A stretch of DNA of 64,000 bases from an uncultured Acidobacteriota bacterium (lineage in GTDB: Bacteria > Acidobacteriota > Vicinamibacteria > Fen-336): assembly GCA_902826455.1 (NCBI GenBank), contig CADEEV010000008.1, forward strand, positions 1 to 64,000, in the 5' to 3' direction. The notes below the pieces were generated by a model that was not told where the DNA came from, did not search any database, and saw only the letters and a program-made list of their open reading frames with translations. Within the stretch, counting starts at the first letter, position 1. The number at the start of each line of letters is the position of its first letter. Below are positions 9,991 to 62,353 of the stretch, one piece after another. The translations under genes and the position numbers were made by a program.

Positions 9991-10020
9991 AGCCTAGCAC
10001 GCCGCCTCGCGTGCTATGGT
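9991..10020. promoter_or_regulatory. Divergent leaderless promoters (hypothetical / amidohydrolase)
   Basis: Minus TAGGCT (9996-9991, preceded by TGC) and plus TATGGT (10015-10020, preceded by TGC) each stand exactly 8 nt from their ATG. Both are extended -10 type. Confidence 0.65.
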
Positions 10021-51823: not shown

Positions 51824-53182
51824 TTGCGCAGGAAGGTCGGCATCTGCAGCTTCGAGATCGACGGCCCGAAGCGCGGCGGCATCGGCACGGCCTACGCGTC
51901 CCTCGCCAAGGTGCTCGCCGCGGCCGGCCACGACGTGACCCTGGTCTTCGCGGGCGATCGCTACGAGACCGGAGGACCCGAGCACTGGCGCGCTCACTAT
52001 GCGCGGCGCGGGGTGACGTTCGAGGGCCTGCCGCCACTGGCGGAGGCGGTCGATCCCCAGACGCCGTGGCCGCTGCCGCTCTCCTACCGCGCCTACCGCC
52101 ACCTGCGCGAGCGCGACTTCGAGATCGTCCACTTCCCGGAAGCGCTGGGAGTGGGCTTCTATTCGCTCCTCGCGGCGCGCCAGGGCCTGGCGTTCCGCAA
52201 CACGGTGCTGGCCGTCGGCACGCACGGGCCGAGTCGATGGGTGCGCGAGGCGAACGCGAACGCCTCGTTCCAGAAGCCCCGGGTCGCGGCCGTTCAGGAC
52301 GTCCTCGAGCGCCGCTGCGTGGAGATGGCCGACGTCCTGATCAGCCCGAGCGCCTACCTGTACCGCTGGATGGAGGAGAGCGGCTGGACGCTCGCCGAGC
52401 CGCGTCACGTGCTCCAGAACGTGCTGCGACCCTCGAGCTCCTCGCCTACCCCGCCGACCGCGTCGTTGAGGATCGAGGAGATCGTGTTCTTCGGGCGCCT
52501 CGAGACGCGGAAGGGCCTGGCGCTGTTCTGCGAGGCGATCGAGCGCGTCCTCGCCGGGGGCCCCGAGCGGCCGCGCGTGACGTTCCTGGGCTGGAATGCG
52601 AAGGACGCGATCGACGGCCTGCCTCCGACCGAGTGGCTGGCGAAGCGCACGGCCGGATGGCCGGCGACGCCGCTCTTCCTCACGGATCTGGATCGCGCCG
52701 GCGCTCTCGCCTACCTGCGGGGCCCGGGCCGGCTGGCCGTCATGCCGTCACCGGTCACGGAGAACTCGCCCTACACCGTGCTGGAGTGTCTCGACGCGGG
52801 GCTCCCGTTCGTCACGACGGACGTCGGTGGGATTCCCGAGTTGGTCCGCGTCGAGGATCGGAGCGCCGCGTGCGTCAGGCCGACGCCGGAGGCACTCGCC
52901 GCCCGGCTCGCGGAGGTGCTTCGGGGACCGCAGGCTCGGCCTCGTCCGGCCCGGGATCCCGCCGACACGCGCCGTGCGTGGATCGAGTGGCACGAGTCCC
53001 TTCCGCCCGCGTCCCGGCCGGCGACGGCCCCGGGCGAGGAGCTGGGCCTCGTCGTCGACGACTCCGAGGAGGGCGTGTTCTTCCGGCGCGAGATGCTGCG
53101 CGATCGCAAGGTGGCGCCCGGAGGAGGCGCTTTCTCGCGTCTGCTGCGAGGCTGGCGTCGCCGCCTCACAAGCGGTGAATGA
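51824..53182 (+). CDS. GT4-type glycosyltransferase
   Basis: 452 aa from TTG 51824, 3 nt after the glycosylase stop. N-terminal GGIGTAYASLAKVLAAAGHD and C-terminal FFGRLETRKGLALFCEAIE, then SPVTENSPYTVLECLDAGLP with the conserved Glu pair, form a GT-B fold of family 4. It likely adds sugar to a surface glycan. The C terminus is variable and overlaps the convergent sulfotransferase by 17 nt. This begins the glycan cluster. Confidence 0.85.
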   Translation: MRRKVGICSFEIDGPKRGGIGTAYASLAKVLAAAGHDVTLVFAGDRYETGGPEHWRAHYARRGVTFEGLPPLAEAVDPQTPWPLPLSYRAYRHLRERDFEIVHFPEALGVGFYSLLAARQGLAFRNTVLAVGTHGPSRWVREANANASFQKPRVAAVQDVLERRCVEMADVLISPSAYLYRWMEESGWTLAEPRHVLQNVLRPSSSSPTPPTASLRIEEIVFFGRLETRKGLALFCEAIERVLAGGPERPRVTFLGWNAKDAIDGLPPTEWLAKRTAGWPATPLFLTDLDRAGALAYLRGPGRLAVMPSPVTENSPYTVLECLDAGLPFVTTDVGGIPELVRVEDRSAACVRPTPEALAARLAEVLRGPQARPRPARDPADTRRAWIEWHESLPPASRPATAPGEELGLVVDDSEEGVFFRREMLRDRKVAPGGGAFSRLLRGWRRRLTSGE

Positions 53183-54068
53183 GCCCCCGGACGCGCGGCT
53201 CGAGGGCCGCATGCACGCGCTCCATGCCGCGCCGCAGCGCGAAGCGTAGCGGCCCCAGCCGCCCCGGCGCCGTCGCCCGCGCATAGCCCAGGCTCTCCAT
53301 CACCGGGCCGGCCACGTGCTCGAGGCGCCGCAGCTCCCCGGCCGACAGTTCCTGCCTCCAGCCGTCGGCGGCGCCGCGCCGGAAGAACGCCTGGTTCGGG
53401 TGCGCGGCCCGCATGCGGTCGAACTGGCAGGCGGCGCGGATCTCGGCCGGGAGCCCGGGGGGCGTGTCGAGCTCCATCCACCGGAACAGCCGCGCCAGCT
53501 CCTCCTCGGCGTGGGTCAGCAGGCGCTCGTAGCGGACCTCGCTGTAGCGCGGCGTGAGCTGCGGGATCTCGAGGGCGCGGGAGACGATCTGGGTCCACGC
53601 GCGACCGGCCTCGATCGGGTTGTCCGGGAACGCCTGGGTCCACGCGCGCGTGCCACGGAACGAGCAGAAGACCTCGCGCGGATCCCGGATCACGTGGAGG
53701 AAAGCGGCGTCGGGGTAGAGGCGCAGGATGAGCGGCGCCTGCTTGGCGTGGGCCGGCGTCTTCTCGAGCCGCACGCGGCAGCCGGGGCGCTCCGGGATCG
53801 CGGTGTCGAGCACCCGGTCCGAGAAGGTGCGCAACAGGTCGTCGAAGGCCTCCTTCCCGAGAACCGAGTGGATGCCGAAGCCCTTGTCCGGTGGCGGGCG
53901 GCGCGTCTCCGCGTTCCAGGCCGCGTCGAGACGGCTGAGGTAGAGCGTGAAGACCGCGGTCTCGGTGGCCGCCGCGGCGACCTGGGGATGGCGCGCCAGC
54001 ATCTCGCGCAGCCAGGTGGTGCCGCTGCGCGGGCAGCCCACGATGAAGACCAGTCTCGGGCCGGGCAT
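53166..54068 (-). CDS. Sulfotransferase family protein (copy 1)
   Basis: 300 aa from ATG 54068. VGCPRSGTTWL (~10-19) is the 5'-phosphosulfate loop and FLHVIRDPREVFCSFRG the 3'-phosphate binding motif, so it should use PAPS to sulfate a hydroxyl, most likely on a glycan. TAGCAT lies 11 nt upstream of this ATG; the frame is open to 54104 but that region holds the promoter. Confidence 0.87.
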   Translation of the reverse strand: MPGPRLVFIVGCPRSGTTWLREMLARHPQVAAAATETAVFTLYLSRLDAAWNAETRRPPPDKGFGIHSVLGKEAFDDLLRTFSDRVLDTAIPERPGCRVRLEKTPAHAKQAPLILRLYPDAAFLHVIRDPREVFCSFRGTRAWTQAFPDNPIEAGRAWTQIVSRALEIPQLTPRYSEVRYERLLTHAEEELARLFRWMELDTPPGLPAEIRAACQFDRMRAAHPNQAFFRRGAADGWRQELSAGELRRLEHVAGPVMESLGYARATAPGRLGPLRFALRRGMERVHAALEPRVRGLIHRL

Positions 54069-54079
54069 GGGAATGGCGC

Positions 54080-54089
54080 ATGCTACCCT
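54080..54089. promoter_or_regulatory. Overlapping divergent -10 boxes (sulfotransferase / GT2)
   Basis: Minus TAGCAT (54085-54080) is 11 nt from ATG 54068; plus TACCCT (54084-54089, preceded by TGC) is 13 nt from ATG 54103. The boxes share two bases. Confidence 0.65.
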
Positions 54090-54102
54090 TTCGCCTCCTG
54101 CC

Positions 54103-55053
54103 ATGCCCCTCGTCAGCGTCGTGCTGCCTTGCTGGAACGCCGCGGCCTACCTGGGCGACGCGATGTCGAGCATCCTGGCCCAGACGCTCGGCGACCTGGA
54201 GCTGATCGTCGTCGACGACGCCTCCACGGACGGGTCGCTCCGGATCGCCCGCGGGTTCGCGGACCCGCGGGTGCGGGTCTCGGCGCTCGCGACGAACGGC
54301 GGGTACCCCGTGGCCATGAATCACGGCATCGCGATGGCCCGGGGACGCTATCTCGCGCGCATGGACGCCGACGACGTGTGCCGGCCGGCGCGCCTCGAGC
54401 GCGAGGTCGCGCTCCTCGAGGACGATCCGCGCCTCGCGTTCGTGGGCACCGAGTGGTACCTGGTCACGCCTCACGGCCACGTCCACGAGAGGCTCGCGGC
54501 GCCGGCGCCCGGCGCGCCCGCCTGGCGGCCGGAGAGCTGGGACTCGCTCGCGACAGGCACGCGGCGCTTCAACGACCCCTCTGTAGTCGCGCGGATCGAG
54601 GCCGTGCGGGCCGCCGGGGGCTATCGCACCTACCAGCGCAGCGTCCAAGACCTCGACCTGTGGCTGCGGCTTCTGGAGGCCGGCGGCGGCGGCGCCGCAT
54701 GGCTGGAGCCTCTCTATGGCCGGAGGCTCAACCCCGACAGCCTCGTGTACTCGGGGCGGCGCGCGGTGGTCGATGCCGTGCCGCGCCGCCTCGCCGAAGA
54801 GCGGCGCGCCACCGGCTCCGACGCCGTGATGCGGGGCGAGCCGTTCCCGGAGAGCCGCGCGTCGGGACCCCTGCGCGCCGCCCGGCGCCGGACGGCCCAG
54901 GCCATGCTGCACGCCGCCGGCGTCTGCGCGACGGCCGGAGACACGCGGGCCGAGCGCACGTTCCTGCGGCGCGCCCTCGCGATGGCGGGCCTGAGCCCGC
55001 TCGGCGCGCGGATCGCGGCCCGCCTCGCGCGTCGAGCGCTGCTCGGTCGCTAG
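54103..55053 (+). CDS. Family 2 glycosyltransferase
   Basis: 316 aa. VSVVLPCWNAAAYLGDAMSS and IVVDDASTDGS bind the nucleotide sugar, and Asp88-Ala-Asp90 (MDADD) is the DxD metal motif; QDLDLWLRL is the acceptor-side acidic motif. GT-A fold, no TM anchor. It probably elongates the surface glycan; donor and acceptor unknown. It overlaps the convergent GT2 by 4 nt. Confidence 0.88.
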   Translation: MPLVSVVLPCWNAAAYLGDAMSSILAQTLGDLELIVVDDASTDGSLRIARGFADPRVRVSALATNGGYPVAMNHGIAMARGRYLARMDADDVCRPARLEREVALLEDDPRLAFVGTEWYLVTPHGHVHERLAAPAPGAPAWRPESWDSLATGTRRFNDPSVVARIEAVRAAGGYRTYQRSVQDLDLWLRLLEAGGGGAAWLEPLYGRRLNPDSLVYSGRRAVVDAVPRRLAEERRATGSDAVMRGEPFPESRASGPLRAARRRTAQAMLHAAGVCATAGDTRAERTFLRRALAMAGLSPLGARIAARLARRALLGR

Positions 55054-55958
55054 CGCGACGCGAGTCGGGCGCGCCACAGGCGCAGCAGCGCCGGCAGCGA
55101 CGCGGGCTCGCGCAGCGCCGCAGCCGCCAGCCGCGGCAGCGGCCGCAGAGGCCCGCCTTCGTGGATCTCAGCCTCGACCGCGTGGGCGAGCAATCGCCAA
55201 CGCCACGCCTTGCGGACGGCTGCCAGGTCCGCCGGGGGCAGCGGAGCGACGAAGCGCTCGACCTCGCGCTCCACGTCCTCGAGATACCGAAGGTGGGCCC
55301 GTGGGCCGAACGTGTGGGAGTCGCCACCGGGATGGACCCGGTACTCGGCCTGGGGCTCGAAGACGTACGCGAAACGGGTGCGGCTCGCCAGTCGCAGCGT
55401 CAGCACGTACCCGTCGTACTTGGGAAAAGCCTCGTCCAGGAAGCCCGCCGCGGTCACGAGGTCGCGGCGCGCGAGCAGCGACCTCATCAGTCCCATGGCG
55501 CCCCCGGCGACGTGAGCCAGAACGTCTCCCGCGGGCTGAGGTGCCGTGTCGCGATTCCCCAGGCGACGGCCCGCGGCGTCGATGAAGGCCACGTTGCTGT
55601 AGGCGCATCCGGCGTCGGGATCCTGCGCGAGAGCCGCGACGAGCGCCTCGATGCAGCCCGGCAGGAGCCGATCGTCGCCGTCGAGGACGCCGACCAGCGC
55701 GCCCGTCGCGCGCTTCAGGCCCGCCGTGCGCGTCCTCGGGATCCCGCCGTTCAGCTCCTGCAGCACTCCGATCACCCGGCCGGGATGACGCGCCTCCCAG
55801 CCGCGGATGAGCTCCTGGGAGCCATCGGACGAGGCGTCGTCCACGACGACGATCTCGTCCACGGCCCGTGTCTGGGCCAGGACGCTGTCGACGGCCTCGG
55901 CCAGGTACGCCTTCTGGTTGAAGGACGTGACGACGATGCTGACGCGCTCGGCGCTCAC
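55050..55958 (-). CDS. Family 2 glycosyltransferase
   Basis: 302 aa from GTG 55958. SIVVTSFNQKAYLAEAVDSV, VVVDDASSDGSQ and LDGDDRLLPG (DxD) mark the GT-A fold, and GYVLTLRLAS corresponds to the acceptor-side motif. Start overlaps the stop of the sulfotransferase upstream on the same strand (GTGA), so sulfation and glycosylation genes are co-translated here. Confidence 0.88.
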   Translation of the reverse strand: MSAERVSIVVTSFNQKAYLAEAVDSVLAQTRAVDEIVVVDDASSDGSQELIRGWEARHPGRVIGVLQELNGGIPRTRTAGLKRATGALVGVLDGDDRLLPGCIEALVAALAQDPDAGCAYSNVAFIDAAGRRLGNRDTAPQPAGDVLAHVAGGAMGLMRSLLARRDLVTAAGFLDEAFPKYDGYVLTLRLASRTRFAYVFEPQAEYRVHPGGDSHTFGPRAHLRYLEDVEREVERFVAPLPPADLAAVRKAWRWRLLAHAVEAEIHEGGPLRPLPRLAAAALREPASLPALLRLWRARLASR

Positions 55959-56692
55959 GGCTCGTAGCCTGCGCGGCGCAGGAAGCCCCCCAGGCGGGCC
56001 TCGGCCACGGCGCGCTCGTGGGGCGAGAACGCGGCGCGATGCCGGCCGGCCTCTCCCACGTTGAAGTGAAGATGCTCCCAGCCCTCGACCCTGTCCTCGG
56101 ATTCGCGCCGTCGCGCCTCGAGGACCCCGTCTATGGCCTCGGGCGCCAGGCGGATGTCGAGGAACGCGCAGAGCCGTTCGGCCTCACGACGTGGCGACGC
56201 CAGGAGATCCTCGTAGCGCTGGACGAACGCCCTGGAACACGCCATCCAGGCTTCGGCCGCCTGGACCTCGCGCGCCATCAGCTCGATGGCGGCCTCGAGC
56301 GACACGAGCGCGGCGAAGGAGCTGGGGCTGCCCTCGCGCCGGGCGCGCTCGCCGTGCTCGAAGGCCGAGAGCGCCGCGTCGCGCGGATCCCGGTACAGGA
56401 ACGTGGCCCTCCAGGCGCCGCTCGCCACGAGGCCCCGGAGCCACGGCGACGGCGGCGCGTGGGTCTTGAACACGAAGCTCTCGCCCGCCAGGGCCGGCCT
56501 GAGCAGCGGCACGAGGCTTCGCAGGCGGGTGTCGCCCAGCAGGCAGTTGTGGTGCCGCAGCACGGCCTGCAGTCCGAAGCGCTCGCGCACGTCGCGCACG
56601 TCCGAGCGCCCCGCGCGCACGAGCAGATCGTTCTGGACGTTGAACCACCATCCGGTGCCGCTCTTGGGCATGCCGGCCGCCACGACGATCAC
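55955..56692 (-). CDS. Sulfotransferase family protein (copy 2)
   Basis: 245 aa from GTG 56692 with GGAGG 7-8 nt upstream. VAAGMPKSGTGWW is the PAPS 5' loop and FLYRDPRDAALSAFEHG the 3' motif. The frame is open to 56815 but crosses the shared promoter. It differs strongly in sequence from copies 1 and 3, so the three are not recent duplicates. Confidence 0.83.
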   Translation of the reverse strand: MIVVAAGMPKSGTGWWFNVQNDLLVRAGRSDVRDVRERFGLQAVLRHHNCLLGDTRLRSLVPLLRPALAGESFVFKTHAPPSPWLRGLVASGAWRATFLYRDPRDAALSAFEHGERARREGSPSSFAALVSLEAAIELMAREVQAAEAWMACSRAFVQRYEDLLASPRREAERLCAFLDIRLAPEAIDGVLEARRRESEDRVEGWEHLHFNVGEAGRHRAAFSPHERAVAEARLGGFLRRAGYEP

Positions 56693-56716
56693 CGGGGGGC
56701 CTCCATCGGAGGCTTG

Positions 56717-56728
56717 GATGCTAGCATC
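56717..56728. promoter_or_regulatory. Palindromic bidirectional -10 element
   Basis: GATGCTAGCATC is a perfect 12-bp palindrome that contains TAGCAT on both strands (plus 56722-56727, minus 56723-56718), each preceded by TGC. It can start transcription towards both the sulfotransferase and the GT92-like gene. Confidence 0.7.
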
Positions 56729-56734
56729 GCGGCG

Positions 56735-56758
56735 ATGCAGCCCGCCGGCGGAGCCTGA
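56735..56758 (+). CDS. Seven-codon leaderless upstream ORF
   Basis: ATG 56735, 7 nt after the TAGCAT box, encodes MQPAGGA and stops at 56756-56758. One base later the TTG of the glycosyltransferase begins. On a leaderless mRNA this ATG would be first read by the ribosome, so it could provide coupled re-initiation. Too short to be judged by composition. Confidence 0.4.
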   Translation: MQPAGGA

Positions 56759-56759
56759 C

Positions 56760-57761
56760 TTGGGGATCGCCCTCGTCATGACGGTGCGCGACGAGGTGGC
56801 GCTGCTCCGTCGCAACCTTCTCTACCATCGCTTCCTCGGCGTCGACCGCTGCTACCTGTTCGACGACGGCTCGAGCGACGGGTCCGCCGCGTCCGTGGCC
56901 GACCTGGACTTCGTAGAGGTGCGGCCCACCACCGACGAGAGCCGCTTCGCGGGCCGGCCCGATCTCGAAGCCCAGCTCCGACCCCACCCGTCCCAGGCCC
57001 GGCGCCAGGGCCTCAACTGCGCCCTCGCCCTGGATCTGGCCCGTGCCGCGGGCCTCGACTGGCTCGTCCACGTGGACGCCGACGAGCTGCTTTGCCCGGA
57101 CCTCGAGCGCGTGGAGCCGGGCGGCCTCGCGCGTCTCCTCGCCGGTGTGGAGGCGCCGATCGAGATGGTCGTCTTCACGGTCGTGGAGGCGATCCAGCAA
57201 GGCCGCGACGACGCCTCGGCCTTCGGGGCCACGTTGTTCCGGCGCCCGGGCACGCTCCTCGAGCGCCCGGCCCTCGACCCGGGCACGGGCGAGACCTGGA
57301 ACGTCGCGCTCTACGGCCACGCACAAGGCAAGGCGGCGGTGCGCGTCGGCGCCGATGCGCATCCGTACACGCCGCACCGCTTCGAGCGCCGCGACGGCAG
57401 CGCGCTTCGCGAGGCCTGGGCCGGCTTCGTGGCGCACTACTACGGCTACAACGCCGAGGACTTCTGGGACAAGTTCCGGGCCCTCGCCCTGGAGGGCGAC
57501 CGCTATCCGCTGGGCCATCCCGTGCAGCGCCGGGTCCGGGTCTGGCACTCGATGGCCCACGACCCGCGCTGGTCGCGGGAGGAGCTGGCGCGCTACTACG
57601 AGCGCTGGATCCGTTTCGGGGACGACGAGGTGAAGCGCCTGCGCCGGACGCGCCGCTTCGGCGTGCTGCCCGTCGTCTCGCCCATCCAGGAGGTCACGGC
57701 CATCGCGGCGGCCCTGCGCGGCCTCGGCCTGCTCCCCGGCGGGAACGCCCGGGACGCCTAG
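56760..57761 (+). CDS. PF13704/GT92-like glycosyltransferase (paralogue 1)
   Basis: 333 aa from TTG 56760. LGIALVMTVRDEVALLRRNL, LGVDRCYLFDDGSSDGS, then VHVDADELL (DxD) define the family. The TTG start matches the N termini of the paralogues at 60387 and 61349; the in-frame ATG at 56778 would drop the first strand. Residues ~260-333 have the YYERWIRFGDDEVKRLR motif shared by all three. Cytosolic GT-A fold; sugar unknown. Confidence 0.87.
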   Translation: MGIALVMTVRDEVALLRRNLLYHRFLGVDRCYLFDDGSSDGSAASVADLDFVEVRPTTDESRFAGRPDLEAQLRPHPSQARRQGLNCALALDLARAAGLDWLVHVDADELLCPDLERVEPGGLARLLAGVEAPIEMVVFTVVEAIQQGRDDASAFGATLFRRPGTLLERPALDPGTGETWNVALYGHAQGKAAVRVGADAHPYTPHRFERRDGSALREAWAGFVAHYYGYNAEDFWDKFRALALEGDRYPLGHPVQRRVRVWHSMAHDPRWSREELARYYERWIRFGDDEVKRLRRTRRFGVLPVVSPIQEVTAIAAALRGLGLLPGGNARDA

Positions 57762-57764
57762 TGC

Positions 57765-57770
57765 TAGCAT
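57765..57770 (+). promoter_or_regulatory. Extended -10 box of sulfotransferase copy 3
   Basis: TAGCAT preceded by TGC, 6 nt before GTG 57777; no Shine-Dalgarno. Confidence 0.6.
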
Positions 57771-57776
57771 CCCGCC

Positions 57777-58811
57777 GTGAGTGACGACGGGGCGGGAACG
57801 CGGCTCGTCTTTCTCGTCTCGCAGCCCCGCGCGGGATCGACGCTGGTCGAGCGGGTCCTGGCCGGGCACCCCGAGATCCACGCCGCCGGCGAGACCTGGC
57901 TGATGCTGCCGGGGCTCTATGCCCTGCGCGAGCAGGACCGCGGCGAATCCTACGACACGGCCCTCGCCCGTCGCGCGATCGGCGCGTTCCTCGCCACGCT
58001 CGAGGACGGGCCGGCCTCCTATCGCTCGTCCCTGGGGCGCCACGCCGGAGACCTGTACGCGCAGGCCGCGCGCGCGGCCGGCAAGCGCCTCTTCCTCGAC
58101 AAGACGCCGCGCTACTACCTCGTGCTGCCCGAGCTGCGCGCGACGTACCCGGCCGCCCGCTTCGTGATCCTCGTGCGCCATCCCCTCGCGGTGCTGCACT
58201 CGATCCTCGACACCTGGGTGCGGCCCGACTGGCTCGCGGCGAGCGCCTTCGCTCGCGACATCGTCGATGCGCCGGCCCTGCTGCTCGAAGGCATCGCCGA
58301 GCCGGGTCCTGCGGCGCACGTCGTGCGCTACGAGAGCTTCGTGGCGGATCCCGAAGCGGAGACGCGCCGGCTCTGCGGGCACCTCGGCGTCGCGTTCCAC
58401 CCGCCCATGCTGCGATACGCCGAGTCGGGGCTTCCCGTCTGGGAGCTCGGCGACCGGAAGGTCTACGACCGGACGGCCCCGGTCACGACGAGCGTCGAGC
58501 GCTGGAAGGCCGCGCTGGCCGAGCCGCAGTTCTGGCGCCTCGCGCGCGACTACGCGGCGCTCCTGGGTCCGCGGCTCGACAGCCTGGGGTACCCCGCCCG
58601 CGAGGTCGATGCGCTCCTCGCGGCCTCGCGGCCCGCGGCCTGGCGCCTCGCCGGCACGTTCTCTCTCGACGAGGTGCTCGCCACGCGGAAGGGCAGCCGG
58701 ATCGGGGCGAGCCTCGAGCGCTTCGGGAGGGCCTGGTCGCGGCGCGGCCTGCGCGGCGCGGTCCTGGGCGGCCTCGCCTGGATCCGCGGGGTCGAGCCGC
58801 CCCGCGACTAG
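57777..58811 (+). CDS. Sulfotransferase family protein (copy 3)
   Basis: 344 aa from GTG 57777. LVSQPRAGSTLVERVLAGHP is the PAPS 5' loop (QPRAGSTL, 16-23) and FVILVRHPLAVLHSILDTW the 3' motif. It belongs to the Sulfotransfer_3-type group. It overlaps the convergent GT2 stop by 4 nt. Together with the other two it points to a sulfated surface polymer. Confidence 0.87.
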   Translation: MSDDGAGTRLVFLVSQPRAGSTLVERVLAGHPEIHAAGETWLMLPGLYALREQDRGESYDTALARRAIGAFLATLEDGPASYRSSLGRHAGDLYAQAARAAGKRLFLDKTPRYYLVLPELRATYPAARFVILVRHPLAVLHSILDTWVRPDWLAASAFARDIVDAPALLLEGIAEPGPAAHVVRYESFVADPEAETRRLCGHLGVAFHPPMLRYAESGLPVWELGDRKVYDRTAPVTTSVERWKAALAEPQFWRLARDYAALLGPRLDSLGYPAREVDALLAASRPAAWRLAGTFSLDEVLATRKGSRIGASLERFGRAWSRRGLRGAVLGGLAWIRGVEPPRD

Positions 58812-59554
58812 ACCGCCCGTCCCAGGGCCGTGCGCAGCGCGAGCCGCGGCAGGATCTGCGGATGCGCCGCGTACAGGCCGGGATGGTTGCGCACGAGCTG
58901 GACGTAGCAGCGGCGCCAGTCGGCCGGGGTGAGGAGGTCGCTGCGCGAGCCCCGGCGCACGCGATACTCGAAGAGGACCTCCGGGACGCGCTCGGCGACG
59001 CGCCCGAGCGAGACGAGGGACAACCAGAAGTCGAAGTCCTCCCAGCCCCGCGTCATGTTCGCGTTGTAGCCGCCCGTGCGATCGAAGTCCGCGCGCTTGT
59101 AGAGCGCCGCCGGCGCGATCGTGTTGCCGAGCAGGAAGTGAGGCATGCGGAAGACGGGCCGCACCCAGGGTCCCGCGTTCTCGCCGAAACGCTCGGCCTC
59201 GGTATCGACGATCCCCACGGGCGAGCCCTCCGCGAAGCGCGCGAGGGTCCTCTCGAGGAATGCCGGGCGCAGGCGATCGTCGGCGTCGAGAGGAAGGATG
59301 AAGACGCCGCGGGACTCCGCGACGGCCGCGTTCCTCGCGGCCGATGGCCCGCGGGGCGGGGTCCTCAAGACCCGGGTCCGGGGCCGGTCGTAGCGGGCCA
59401 GGAGCTCCGTCGTGAACGGGTCGGTGGAGCCGTCGTCGACCACGAGGATCTCCACGTCCCTCACGGTCTGCGCGAGCACGGAATCCACGGCCTCGTCGAG
59501 GAAGCGGCCGTGGTCCCGGCAGGGCATCACGACGCTGACCTGGGGCGTCGTCAA
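58808..59554 (-). CDS. Family 2 glycosyltransferase
   Basis: 248 aa from TTG 59554. VSVVMPCRDHGRFLDEAVDS, ILVVDDGSTD and LPLDADDRLRP (DxD) define a GT-A domain; GWEDFDFWLSL is the acceptor motif. The TTG overlaps the stop of the GT upstream on the same strand (TTGA), so both are translated together. The open frame continues to 60418 over the other GT gene, which is shadow. Confidence 0.85.
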   Translation of the reverse strand: MTTPQVSVVMPCRDHGRFLDEAVDSVLAQTVRDVEILVVDDGSTDPFTTELLARYDRPRTRVLRTPPRGPSAARNAAVAESRGVFILPLDADDRLRPAFLERTLARFAEGSPVGIVDTEAERFGENAGPWVRPVFRMPHFLLGNTIAPAALYKRADFDRTGGYNANMTRGWEDFDFWLSLVSLGRVAERVPEVLFEYRVRRGSRSDLLTPADWRRCYVQLVRNHPGLYAAHPQILPRLALRTALGRAV

Positions 59555-60354
59555 CGGCCGCGCAGCCAGAGGAAGAAGTGCGGCCGGCGGTAGAACCAGA
59601 GGTAGGACGCCAGGAACGCCCAATGGCCGGGCGTCCACGCCGGTCCCCAGTGGGCCCGGCTGATCGCCAGGGTCTCGCGCCACTGGTGCGGGGTCGGAGC
59701 GTGAGACAAGGATCCCTGGTCGTACCGGAAGCGCGCCAGGGTGTGTCCCAGGGTGCGGACCGGAAAGCGCTCGGTGAGGCGGATCCAGTGGTCGTAGTCC
59801 ATGGCGTAGCGATGCCGCTCGTCGAAAGGCCCCGCCGACTGGAGCGCCTCGCGCGAGAAGAAGGTCGCCGCGGCAGGCAGGCAGATGCGCGTTCCCCAGT
59901 AACGCCAGCACTCGATGAGATCGCGGCGGCTCGTGAAGCTCGCCGTCTGCGTGAAGCGGAGGGCGCCCTGGTTGTCGACGAAGTCGCAGCCTCCCGAGAC
60001 GAGACCGGCGCCCGGCGCCTCGGCAAAGGCGCGAGCCACCGTGGTCAGGGCCCCGGGAAGGTACGCGTCGTCGTCGCCCAGCACGCCGAGGACGGCGCCG
60101 CTGGCCAGGGCCAGGCCCTTGTTCATGGCCTGTGACGGCCCGTCGTCGGGGCCGGACACGAAGCGAAGATGCGGGTGGCGGCGCGCCGCGTCTTGCAGGT
60201 ACTCGAGGGTCCCGTCGGTCGAGGCGCCGTCGACGACGATGTGCTCCTTGTCCGGATGGTCCTGGGCCGCGACACTCTCGACGCAGCGCGCAAGCCACCC
60301 GCGGCGGTTGAGCGTCGCGGTCACGACGGACAGCCGGAGACCGCCAGCGAGCAT
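59551..60354 (-). CDS. Family 2 glycosyltransferase
   Basis: 267 aa. LSVVTATLNRRGWLARCVES, HIVVDGASTDGT and VLGDDDAYLPGA (DxD) are the GT2 motifs of the WcaA-like subgroup, with YAMDYDHWIRL as the acceptor-side motif. TAGCAT lies 9 nt before its ATG. It precedes the GT2 at 58808 in an operon. Confidence 0.88.
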   Translation of the reverse strand: MLAGGLRLSVVTATLNRRGWLARCVESVAAQDHPDKEHIVVDGASTDGTLEYLQDAARRHPHLRFVSGPDDGPSQAMNKGLALASGAVLGVLGDDDAYLPGALTTVARAFAEAPGAGLVSGGCDFVDNQGALRFTQTASFTSRRDLIECWRYWGTRICLPAAATFFSREALQSAGPFDERHRYAMDYDHWIRLTERFPVRTLGHTLARFRYDQGSLSHAPTPHQWRETLAISRAHWGPAWTPGHWAFLASYLWFYRRPHFFLWLRGR

Positions 60355-60363
60355 CCGCCGGCA

Positions 60364-60373
60364 ATGCTAACCT
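60364..60373. promoter_or_regulatory. Overlapping divergent -10 boxes (GT2 / GT92-like)
   Basis: Minus TAGCAT (60369-60364) is 9 nt from ATG 60354; plus TAACCT (60368-60373, preceded by TGC) is 13 nt from ATG 60387. The two boxes overlap by two bases. Confidence 0.65.
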
Positions 60374-60386
60374 TTTTGTCTTCCCC

Positions 60387-61352
60387 ATGAGCCTCGCCCT
60401 GGTCACGACGGTGCGCAACGAACGCCTCGCGCTCCGTCCGAATCTGCTGTACCACCGGTTCCTGGGTGTCGAGCGCGCCTACGTGTTCGACGACGGCTCG
60501 AGCGACGGCACCGTCGAGTCGGTGGCCGATCTCCCGTTCGTCCGGGTCCGGCCCATGGAGGCGCCCATCGCCTTTCCGCCCAGCGCGGCGCCCGCCTGGG
60601 CGGCCCACGTCGCGCGGCAGCACACGGCGCGCCAGAGCCTCAACGCCCACGCGGCCATGGCGAGCGCCCGGGCCGACGGCTTCGCGTGGCTGCTGCACCT
60701 CGACCCGGACGAGTTCGTCGCCCTCGACGCGAACGAGGCGCGGGCGGGGAGCCTGGCCCGAGCCGTCGAAGAGCTGCCGCCCGAGGTCGAGGTGGCGCAC
60801 CTCGAGACGGCGGAGGTCGTGCAGCGGCCCTCCGGCCAGAGCCGGGGGTTCGGCCGGGAGACCGCGTTCAAGATCGATCGCTCGGTGCTGCGCCGGCCGA
60901 TGTACGACCCGCTCCGGGGCCTGACCTGGGAGCTCCAGGGCTTCTACGCCCACCACCTCGGCAAGGCGCTGGTGCGCCTGTCGGGCGATGCGCGCCCTGT
61001 GTCGCCCCACGAGTTCAAGAGCGCCACGGGGCGAGCGCTCCGGACGCGGACCGTGGGCCGCCTGCTCCACTTCCACGCCCACTCCTTCGAGGACTGGGTC
61101 GCGAAGTACCGCCAACTGCTCGGCCGGCCGGATCACTACGTCTCCGGAGACCTGCTCGAGCGCCACAAGCGCGTCTGGCGCGATCTCGTGACCCACCCCG
61201 ACTACGACGTCGACCGCCTGCGCTCCTACTTCGACCGCTGGCTCGCCATGGGCGAGGACGAAATCCGACGCGTCGGCCACGGGATCCTCGAGGTCCGCGG
61301 CCTCGGCGACCTCCTCGCCACGCTCGACGCGCCGCCTCCGGCCTCCGCATGA
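60387..61352 (+). CDS. PF13704/GT92-like glycosyltransferase (paralogue 2)
   Basis: 321 aa. SLALVTTVRNERLALRPNLL, LGVERAYVFDDGSSDGT and LHLDPDEFV (DxD as D-P-D) match paralogues 1 and 3. The Cys/His-free core and the YFDRWLAMGEDEIRRV motif near the C terminus are shared too. Its stop overlaps the ATG of paralogue 3, showing tandem duplication. Confidence 0.88.
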   Translation: MSLALVTTVRNERLALRPNLLYHRFLGVERAYVFDDGSSDGTVESVADLPFVRVRPMEAPIAFPPSAAPAWAAHVARQHTARQSLNAHAAMASARADGFAWLLHLDPDEFVALDANEARAGSLARAVEELPPEVEVAHLETAEVVQRPSGQSRGFGRETAFKIDRSVLRRPMYDPLRGLTWELQGFYAHHLGKALVRLSGDARPVSPHEFKSATGRALRTRTVGRLLHFHAHSFEDWVAKYRQLLGRPDHYVSGDLLERHKRVWRDLVTHPDYDVDRLRSYFDRWLAMGEDEIRRVGHGILEVRGLGDLLATLDAPPPASA

Positions 61353-62353
61353 CGATCGCCCTCGTGACCACGGTGCGCAACGAGCGCGCCTCGCTGCGCA
61401 CGAACCTTCTCTACCATCGGCGGCTGGGCGTCACCCGGGCCTTCGTCTTCGACGACGGCTCGACGGATGGCACCGCGGAGACTCTCGCGGACCTCGCCTT
61501 CGTGGAGGTGCTGGGGCCGGCCCGGGGCTCGGAGTTCGGCGGGCGGCCGGGCCTGGCCGCCGCCGCCGAGCGCTGCGCTCACGACTACGCCTCGCGCCAG
61601 ATCCTGAACGCGCAGCGCGCCCTGGACCTCGCCCGCGAGCAAGGCTGCGACTGGCTCCTCCACATCGACGCCGACGAGCTCCTGGTCGCCGAGGGCTCGA
61701 GCGGCGCCGCGGGCAGTCTCGAGGCGCTGCTGGGCGACGTGAAGGAGGCCGAGGCCGTGGCCTTCCGACCGCTCGAGGTCGTGCAAACGCATGCGGAGCC
61801 CCGTAACGCATTCGGGGAGCTCACGCTGTTCAAGCGCCGATCCCCTCGACTCCGGCGCCGCGTGCCCGATCCCTACAGCGGCGCGCTCCTGCCCATCGCC
61901 GATTTCTTCGGCCACACGGCCGGAAAGTGGGCGGTGCGCGTCCCCGCCGCCGCCTATCCGGCGTCGGTCCATGCCTTCCGCGGCGCGGGGGGTCGCGCCC
62001 TCGCGGTGGCGCGGCGCGGCGCGCTGCTCCACTACTACTCGAACGGCGTCTCCGACTTCGTCCGGAAGCATCGGGCCCTGCCTTCGTTCGATCGCTACGC
62101 GAGCGGCGCCCCCGTGGAGGCCCACAAGATCGTGTGGCGGCGGATGGCGCAGGATCCGGCCTGGACGGAGGCGCGCCTGCGGGACTACTACGAGCGCCAC
62201 ATCGTGTACCCCCCCGCCGAGATCCGCCGCCTGCGGGCGACCCGCCGGTTCGGCTTCTGGCCGGTGGAGCCGGCGATCGTCGAGGTCACGGCCGTCCGGG
62301 ACGCCCTCCGGGAGATGGGCCTTCTGGACACGCCCGGGGCTGACGGCGGATAA
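61349..62353 (+). CDS. PF13704/GT92-like glycosyltransferase (paralogue 3)
   Basis: 334 aa. TIALVTTVRNERASLRTNLL, LGVTRAFVFDDGSTDGT and LHIDADELLV (DxD) mark the family; YYERHIVYPPAEIRRLRA corresponds to the C-terminal motif of paralogues 1 and 2. It is co-translated with paralogue 2 and ends 23 nt before infA. The three enzymes probably add different sugars to the same polymer, by inference from duplication and divergence. Confidence 0.88.
   Translation: MTIALVTTVRNERASLRTNLLYHRRLGVTRAFVFDDGSTDGTAETLADLAFVEVLGPARGSEFGGRPGLAAAAERCAHDYASRQILNAQRALDLAREQGCDWLLHIDADELLVAEGSSGAAGSLEALLGDVKEAEAVAFRPLEVVQTHAEPRNAFGELTLFKRRSPRLRRRVPDPYSGALLPIADFFGHTAGKWAVRVPAAAYPASVHAFRGAGGRALAVARRGALLHYYSNGVSDFVRKHRALPSFDRYASGAPVEAHKIVWRRMAQDPAWTEARLRDYYERHIVYPPAEIRRLRATRRFGFWPVEPAIVEVTAVRDALREMGLLDTPGADGG

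Follow-up and report, generated by a model that had tools for sequence, protein, structure and literature searches.

A perfect 12-bp palindrome as a probable bidirectional promoter core between divergent sulfotransferase and glycosyltransferase genes of an acidobacteriote

A sulfotransferase gene and a divergently oriented family 2 glycosyltransferase gene are separated by 67 bp that contain the perfect 12-bp palindrome GATGCTAGCATC at positions 56717-56728 of the window (the whole 64,000-nucleotide stretch of DNA that was analysed). Judging from its sequence and from genome-wide word statistics, this palindrome is probably the core of a bidirectional housekeeping-sigma promoter for both genes. 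We infer that transcription would leave GATGCTAGCATC in both directions and that the two directions would exclude each other: RNA polymerase would load at the palindrome in either orientation, with sigma region 2 opening the hexamer TAGCAT on each strand and sigma region 3.0 touching the TG extension, which would make up for poor -35 elements. The plus-strand transcript, starting at ca. 56734, would run into the glycosyltransferase gene and the minus-strand transcript, starting at ca. 56711, into the sulfotransferase gene. Because both hexamers share one TA step, the two start sites would lie only ca. 23 bp apart and a single polymerase at a time would occupy the core. More broadly, the genome seems to use many shared start signals between closely packed divergent genes, and the statistics favour this general arrangement more than the single site at 56717.

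The palindrome and its flanking genes

As the original prediction had claimed, a sequence check finds the palindrome to be perfect over its 12 bp, and each strand reads the extended -10 element TGCTAGCAT with TAGCAT and a TG extension. On the glycosyltransferase side (plus strand, 56719-56727), the hexamer occupies 56722-56727 and the TG 56719-56720, while on the sulfotransferase side (minus strand, 56718-56726) the hexamer runs from 56723 to 56718 and the TG from 56726 to 56725. The TA step at 56722-56723 is common to both hexamers, resulting in the pattern ANNNTANNNT, and scanning both strands of the 67-bp gap revealed no TANNNT hexamer besides these two. Part of the symmetry comes free of charge because TGCTAGCA is self-complementary, so that a one-way TGCTAGCAT with one additional A already looks two-way. 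From the hexamer geometry, with 7 nt from each -10 and a resulting spacing of ca. 23 bp, the plus-strand start is predicted at ca. 56734/56735, where the letters are purines (G, A), and the minus-strand start at ca. 56711, where the transcript would have a pyrimidine (the minus strand after the -10 reads CCAAGCCTCC). The plus direction may be stronger than the minus direction because of these pyrimidines at the minus-strand start and the G and A at the plus-strand start.

Gene starts were assigned with a home-made codon-usage caller that was trained on the genome and is blind to promoters, the start choices being home-made as well. The gap extends from a GTG at 56692 (minus strand) to a TTG at 56760 (plus strand), and these independently called starts make the two genes divergent. 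The sulfotransferase gene (PF00685/PF13469; 55955-56692, minus strand), supported by the coding model and Pfam, overlaps the next minus-strand gene, a family 2 glycosyltransferase at 55050-55958, and with its start at GTG 56692 the N-terminus of the protein carries the P-loop-like stretch of sulfotransferases, VIVVAAGMPKSGT. On the other side, the family 2 glycosyltransferase gene (PF13704; 56760-57761, plus strand) is supported by the coding model, Pfam and a paralogue alignment in which TTG 56760 lines up with the ATG of a paralogue at 60387 (40% identical). The region at 53166-62353 is a glycosyltransferase/sulfotransferase cluster with mixed orientations, and its three PF13704 glycosyltransferases (at 56760, 60387 and 61349) are without relatives in the 59 related genomes searched; for the one at 56760, no relatives were detected at E<=0.001 in these 59 genomes or in a contig scan.

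The sulfotransferase start is preceded, at a distance of 7 nt, by a Shine-Dalgarno-like GGAGG (56700-56704, minus strand), which is covered by a 6-bp leader hairpin, GCCTCC-GAT-GGAGGC (56698-56713, minus strand), and in RNA folding of both leaders neither one beats shuffles (z of 0.08 for the minus-strand leader). On the plus strand, an ATG 7 nt behind the -10, i.e., at leaderless distance, opens a 7-codon frame (56735-56758) that stops 1 nt before TTG 56760; on the minus strand, an ATG opens a 5-codon frame (56689-56706) with a TGA that overlaps GTG 56692. The frame at 56735 could possibly be a leaderless mini-ORF and its minus-strand counterpart possibly a mini-ORF as well; both short frames may be due to chance. 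Relative to the genes themselves, the hexamers sit at -38 (plus) and -31 (minus), outside the range of -16 to -11 that marks leaderless genes and holds the strongest genome-wide signal; at this locus, only the 7-codon frame at 56735 falls within it. A leaderless reading of both main genes was dropped: the called starts, the Pfam-typical N-termini and the paralogue start all point to 56692 and 56760.

The RpoD of this genome has its closest match in the named collection (72% identical) in a Vicinamibacterales metagenome-assembled genome, the next-closest named matches come from other Acidobacteriota, and the host is an acidobacteriote that is probably near Vicinamibacterales. The RIPVHMIETINK stretch of this RpoD, which in E. 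coli sigma70 contacts the extended -10, is identical to that of solved RpoD sequences.

Extended -10 words, leaderless starts and shared cores in the genome

Gap and start statistics were compiled from 1.26 Mb of the genome, taken as stretches. In this sample, 44 of 108 occurrences of TGNTANNNT have an ATG or GTG 7-10 nt downstream, as compared to 27 of 213 for the reversed control word, and TANNNT hexamers peak at positions -15 to -12 relative to the called starts with 130 matches versus ca. 3-12 per position upstream. Similarly, TGCTANNNT with an ATG 6-10 nt downstream was counted 66 times in this genome versus 16 times for the control, an enrichment that recurs in most genomes of the same family and is not general among the other members of the class. 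All seven TGCTAGCAT sites of the genome lie within 120 bp upstream of a start on the same strand, and one has a TTGACG -35 in front of it. Words containing CTAG are rare in this genome, with only nine occurrences of TGCTAGCA versus 318 of its reversed, non-complemented control word.

Several other places in the window show related layouts. At 57762-57777, a second TGCTAGCAT directly follows the TAG stop of the glycosyltransferase gene at 56760 and is itself followed, after 6 nt, by the GTG of the next gene, a sulfotransferase, so that it would be a leaderless internal promoter filling the 15-bp gap. At 9991-10020, extended -10s lie back to back (TGCTAGGCT on the minus strand, TGCTATGGT on the plus strand) with an ATG 7-8 nt after each, and these would be separate, closely apposed divergent leaderless promoters. 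The divergent pair at 1560-1580 has a 19-bp gap with TGCTAGTAT at leaderless distance of the minus-strand gene. Finally, the next divergent pair after the palindrome (60354-60387), of which the plus-strand gene is the paralogue of the glycosyltransferase at 56760, has a shared core of identical geometry (ATGCTAACCT).

Divergent gaps were counted at lengths of 10-250 bp (n = 126; 0.9% of the sampled DNA). The shared-core pattern ANNNTANNNT is present in 34 of them versus 9.5 +/- 2.9 expected from Markov-1 simulations, and it occurs 39 times in 11.7 kb of divergent gaps (3.3 per kb) versus 12 times in 18.8 kb of tandem ones (0.64 per kb). When broken down by offset, the shared-TA geometry accounts for 48 cases versus 19 in shuffles, and the 18-bp geometry shows no enrichment (23 versus 19 in shuffles). 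The double-extended shared core ATGNTANCAT has four sites in 5.26 Mb, three of which lie between divergent starts, and the 126 divergent gaps hold a single double-extended shared core, GATGCTAGCATC, compared to a mean of 0.0 in 200 Markov-1 simulations. In addition, leaderless -10s have the extra A that turns them two-way in 17 of 46 cases in divergent gaps shorter than 70 bp, as compared to 9 of 101 cases elsewhere (Fisher p = 8e-5). Because both genes need a promoter in such short gaps, this enrichment shows that cores are common to both genes and not that sharing is selected. Of the original proposal that one core serves two divergent genes, the divergence is borne out by the called starts, and the sharing, as far as word statistics can tell, is supported genome-wide. 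The proposal had also named rarity of the palindrome in other divergent pairs as an argument against itself; the exact 12-mer is indeed present only once in the 5,258,802-base genome, but the underlying pattern ANNNTANNNT is enriched in divergent gaps. Two points had escaped the original proposal: that leaderless promoters are a broader trait of this genome, and that the self-complementary TGCTAGCA accounts for part of the symmetry.

In five divergent pairs of the 1.26-Mb sample, one shared core lies at leaderless spacing from both genes, versus 0.05 pairs expected, and their gaps measure 18-29 bp (e.g., cacCGGGGCAGTATATTCGCGGGatg at C1:332275-332296). We tentatively suggest, at somewhat less than even confidence, that packing divergent genes tightly around a single two-way -10, from which two leaderless mRNAs start, is a systematic habit of this lineage, in which case the palindrome at 56717 would be a leadered variant where each direction may first run into a mini-ORF that is coupled to the actual start. 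With the same reserve, the 18-29 bp gap of that packing could comprise both whole promoters together with both translation starts. Two other tight divergent pairs were examined for conservation of the two-way arrangement. Among orthologues of the gene at C5:4307, several family members keep a TANNNT ca. 6-7 nt before the GTG, and a divergent neighbour was not evident in these family members; for the gene at C2:126416, the orthologue comparison gave no usable start alignment. Short divergent gaps were few in 400 kb of a same-family genome, with a count of 1/4, and a same-class genome gave none.

Alternative explanations for the palindrome

A promoter that drives only the plus-strand glycosyltransferase gene would account for the symmetry as a by-product of the self-complementary -10 and leave the sulfotransferase operon to be driven from elsewhere or weakly. 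We regard this explanation as unlikely, even though the extra A is missing from six of the seven TGCTAGCAT sites, which appear one-way, base composition would lead one to expect about one ATGCTAGCAT in seven, and the +1 letters are purines on the plus strand and pyrimidines on the minus strand. The one TGCTAGCAT site that does have the extra A is the one located between two close divergent starts, and it is short divergent gaps that are enriched in this letter. Moreover, the minus-strand gene is left without an alternative TANNNT in the gap, and its good GGAGG is suitably placed for the predicted start.

That the palindrome is a chance occurrence without function seems very improbable to us. 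Perfect 12-bp palindromes are common enough in the window, which has 62 of them, yet only three fall within its 2,292 intergenic bases, and the scarcity of CTAG-containing words, the location of all seven TGCTAGCAT sites in front of genes and the near absence of double-extended cores from simulated divergent gaps all argue against coincidence. We give hardly any credence to an operator bound by a dimeric transcription factor that regulates both genes. The palindrome is a perfect inverted repeat, and its location between divergent genes is usual for an operator, but the 12-mer is unique in the genome and therefore not a repeated operator that recurs at other regulated promoters, and it was on this ground that the operator was rejected. 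Furthermore, the related ATGNTANCAT sites share just the letters set by the two extended -10s, without any outer consensus, and no regulator gene was seen adjacent to the locus. A bidirectional promoter core is the explanation that we favour for GATGCTAGCATC.

Comparison with known promoters and biological meaning

Promoters that use one -10 in both directions form an established bacterial class of bidirectional promoters, described by Warman, Grainger and colleagues (PMC12825309, PMC10268837), with common start spacings of 18, 10 and 23 bp (PMC12825309). The locus at 56717 resembles this class in that one pseudo-symmetrical -10 region lies on both strands between divergent genes, that the -10s of opposite strands reciprocally overlap (TAGCAT at 56722-56727 and 56723-56718), and that the arrangement is commoner between divergent genes than expected (34 of 126 gaps versus 9.5); the predicted spacing of ca. 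23 bp would belong to a common class and fall inside the 7-25 bp used to define such promoters. Unlike the described promoters of E. coli or Salmonella, it is found in a GC-rich acidobacteriote, has a TG extension and a poor -35 in both directions, and is perfectly symmetrical over 12 bp. Furthermore, this genome shows an excess of the 23-bp geometry over shuffles, whereas E. coli favours the 18-bp one. Two polymerases cannot bind simultaneously at bidirectional promoters (PMC12825309), and the same steric exclusion would apply here, so that the original statement that the two directions do not start at the same moment agrees with expectation. This does not have to mean regulation, however, because at the five E. 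coli promoters tested basal activity was so low that neither direction affected the other (PMC12825309).

A TANNNT ca. 12 bp before the start codon is the signature of leaderless mRNAs, and Acidobacteria have ca. 13% leaderless genes (Zheng et al. 2011, PMC3160421). Both the pattern and its position match genome-wide in our case, but the two genes at 56717 apparently have leaders of ca. 19-26 nt, and leaderless use is found at other divergent pairs of the genome and at 56717 only for the mini-ORF. Extended -10 promoters (TGn-TAnnnT) are known from E. coli and other bacteria. The palindrome shares with them the TG one base before the hexamer, the poor -35 and a conserved sigma region 3.0 stretch, and it differs from them in that one core has the extension on both strands.

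Taken together, the palindrome at 56717 is probably a known kind of promoter in a new lineage. Among open-licence papers of the bacterial literature, we found none whose main subject was leaderless promoters in combination with bidirectional ones. Sequence evidence for bidirectional promoters now reaches a Vicinamibacterales-related acidobacteriote, where it is tied to leaderless gene starts. If neither mRNA of a divergent pair has a leader, promoter strength in both directions would be fixed by the same few base pairs, with scant space for separate regulation, and a coupling of divergent genes by polymerase competition would be testable by plain 5'-end mapping.
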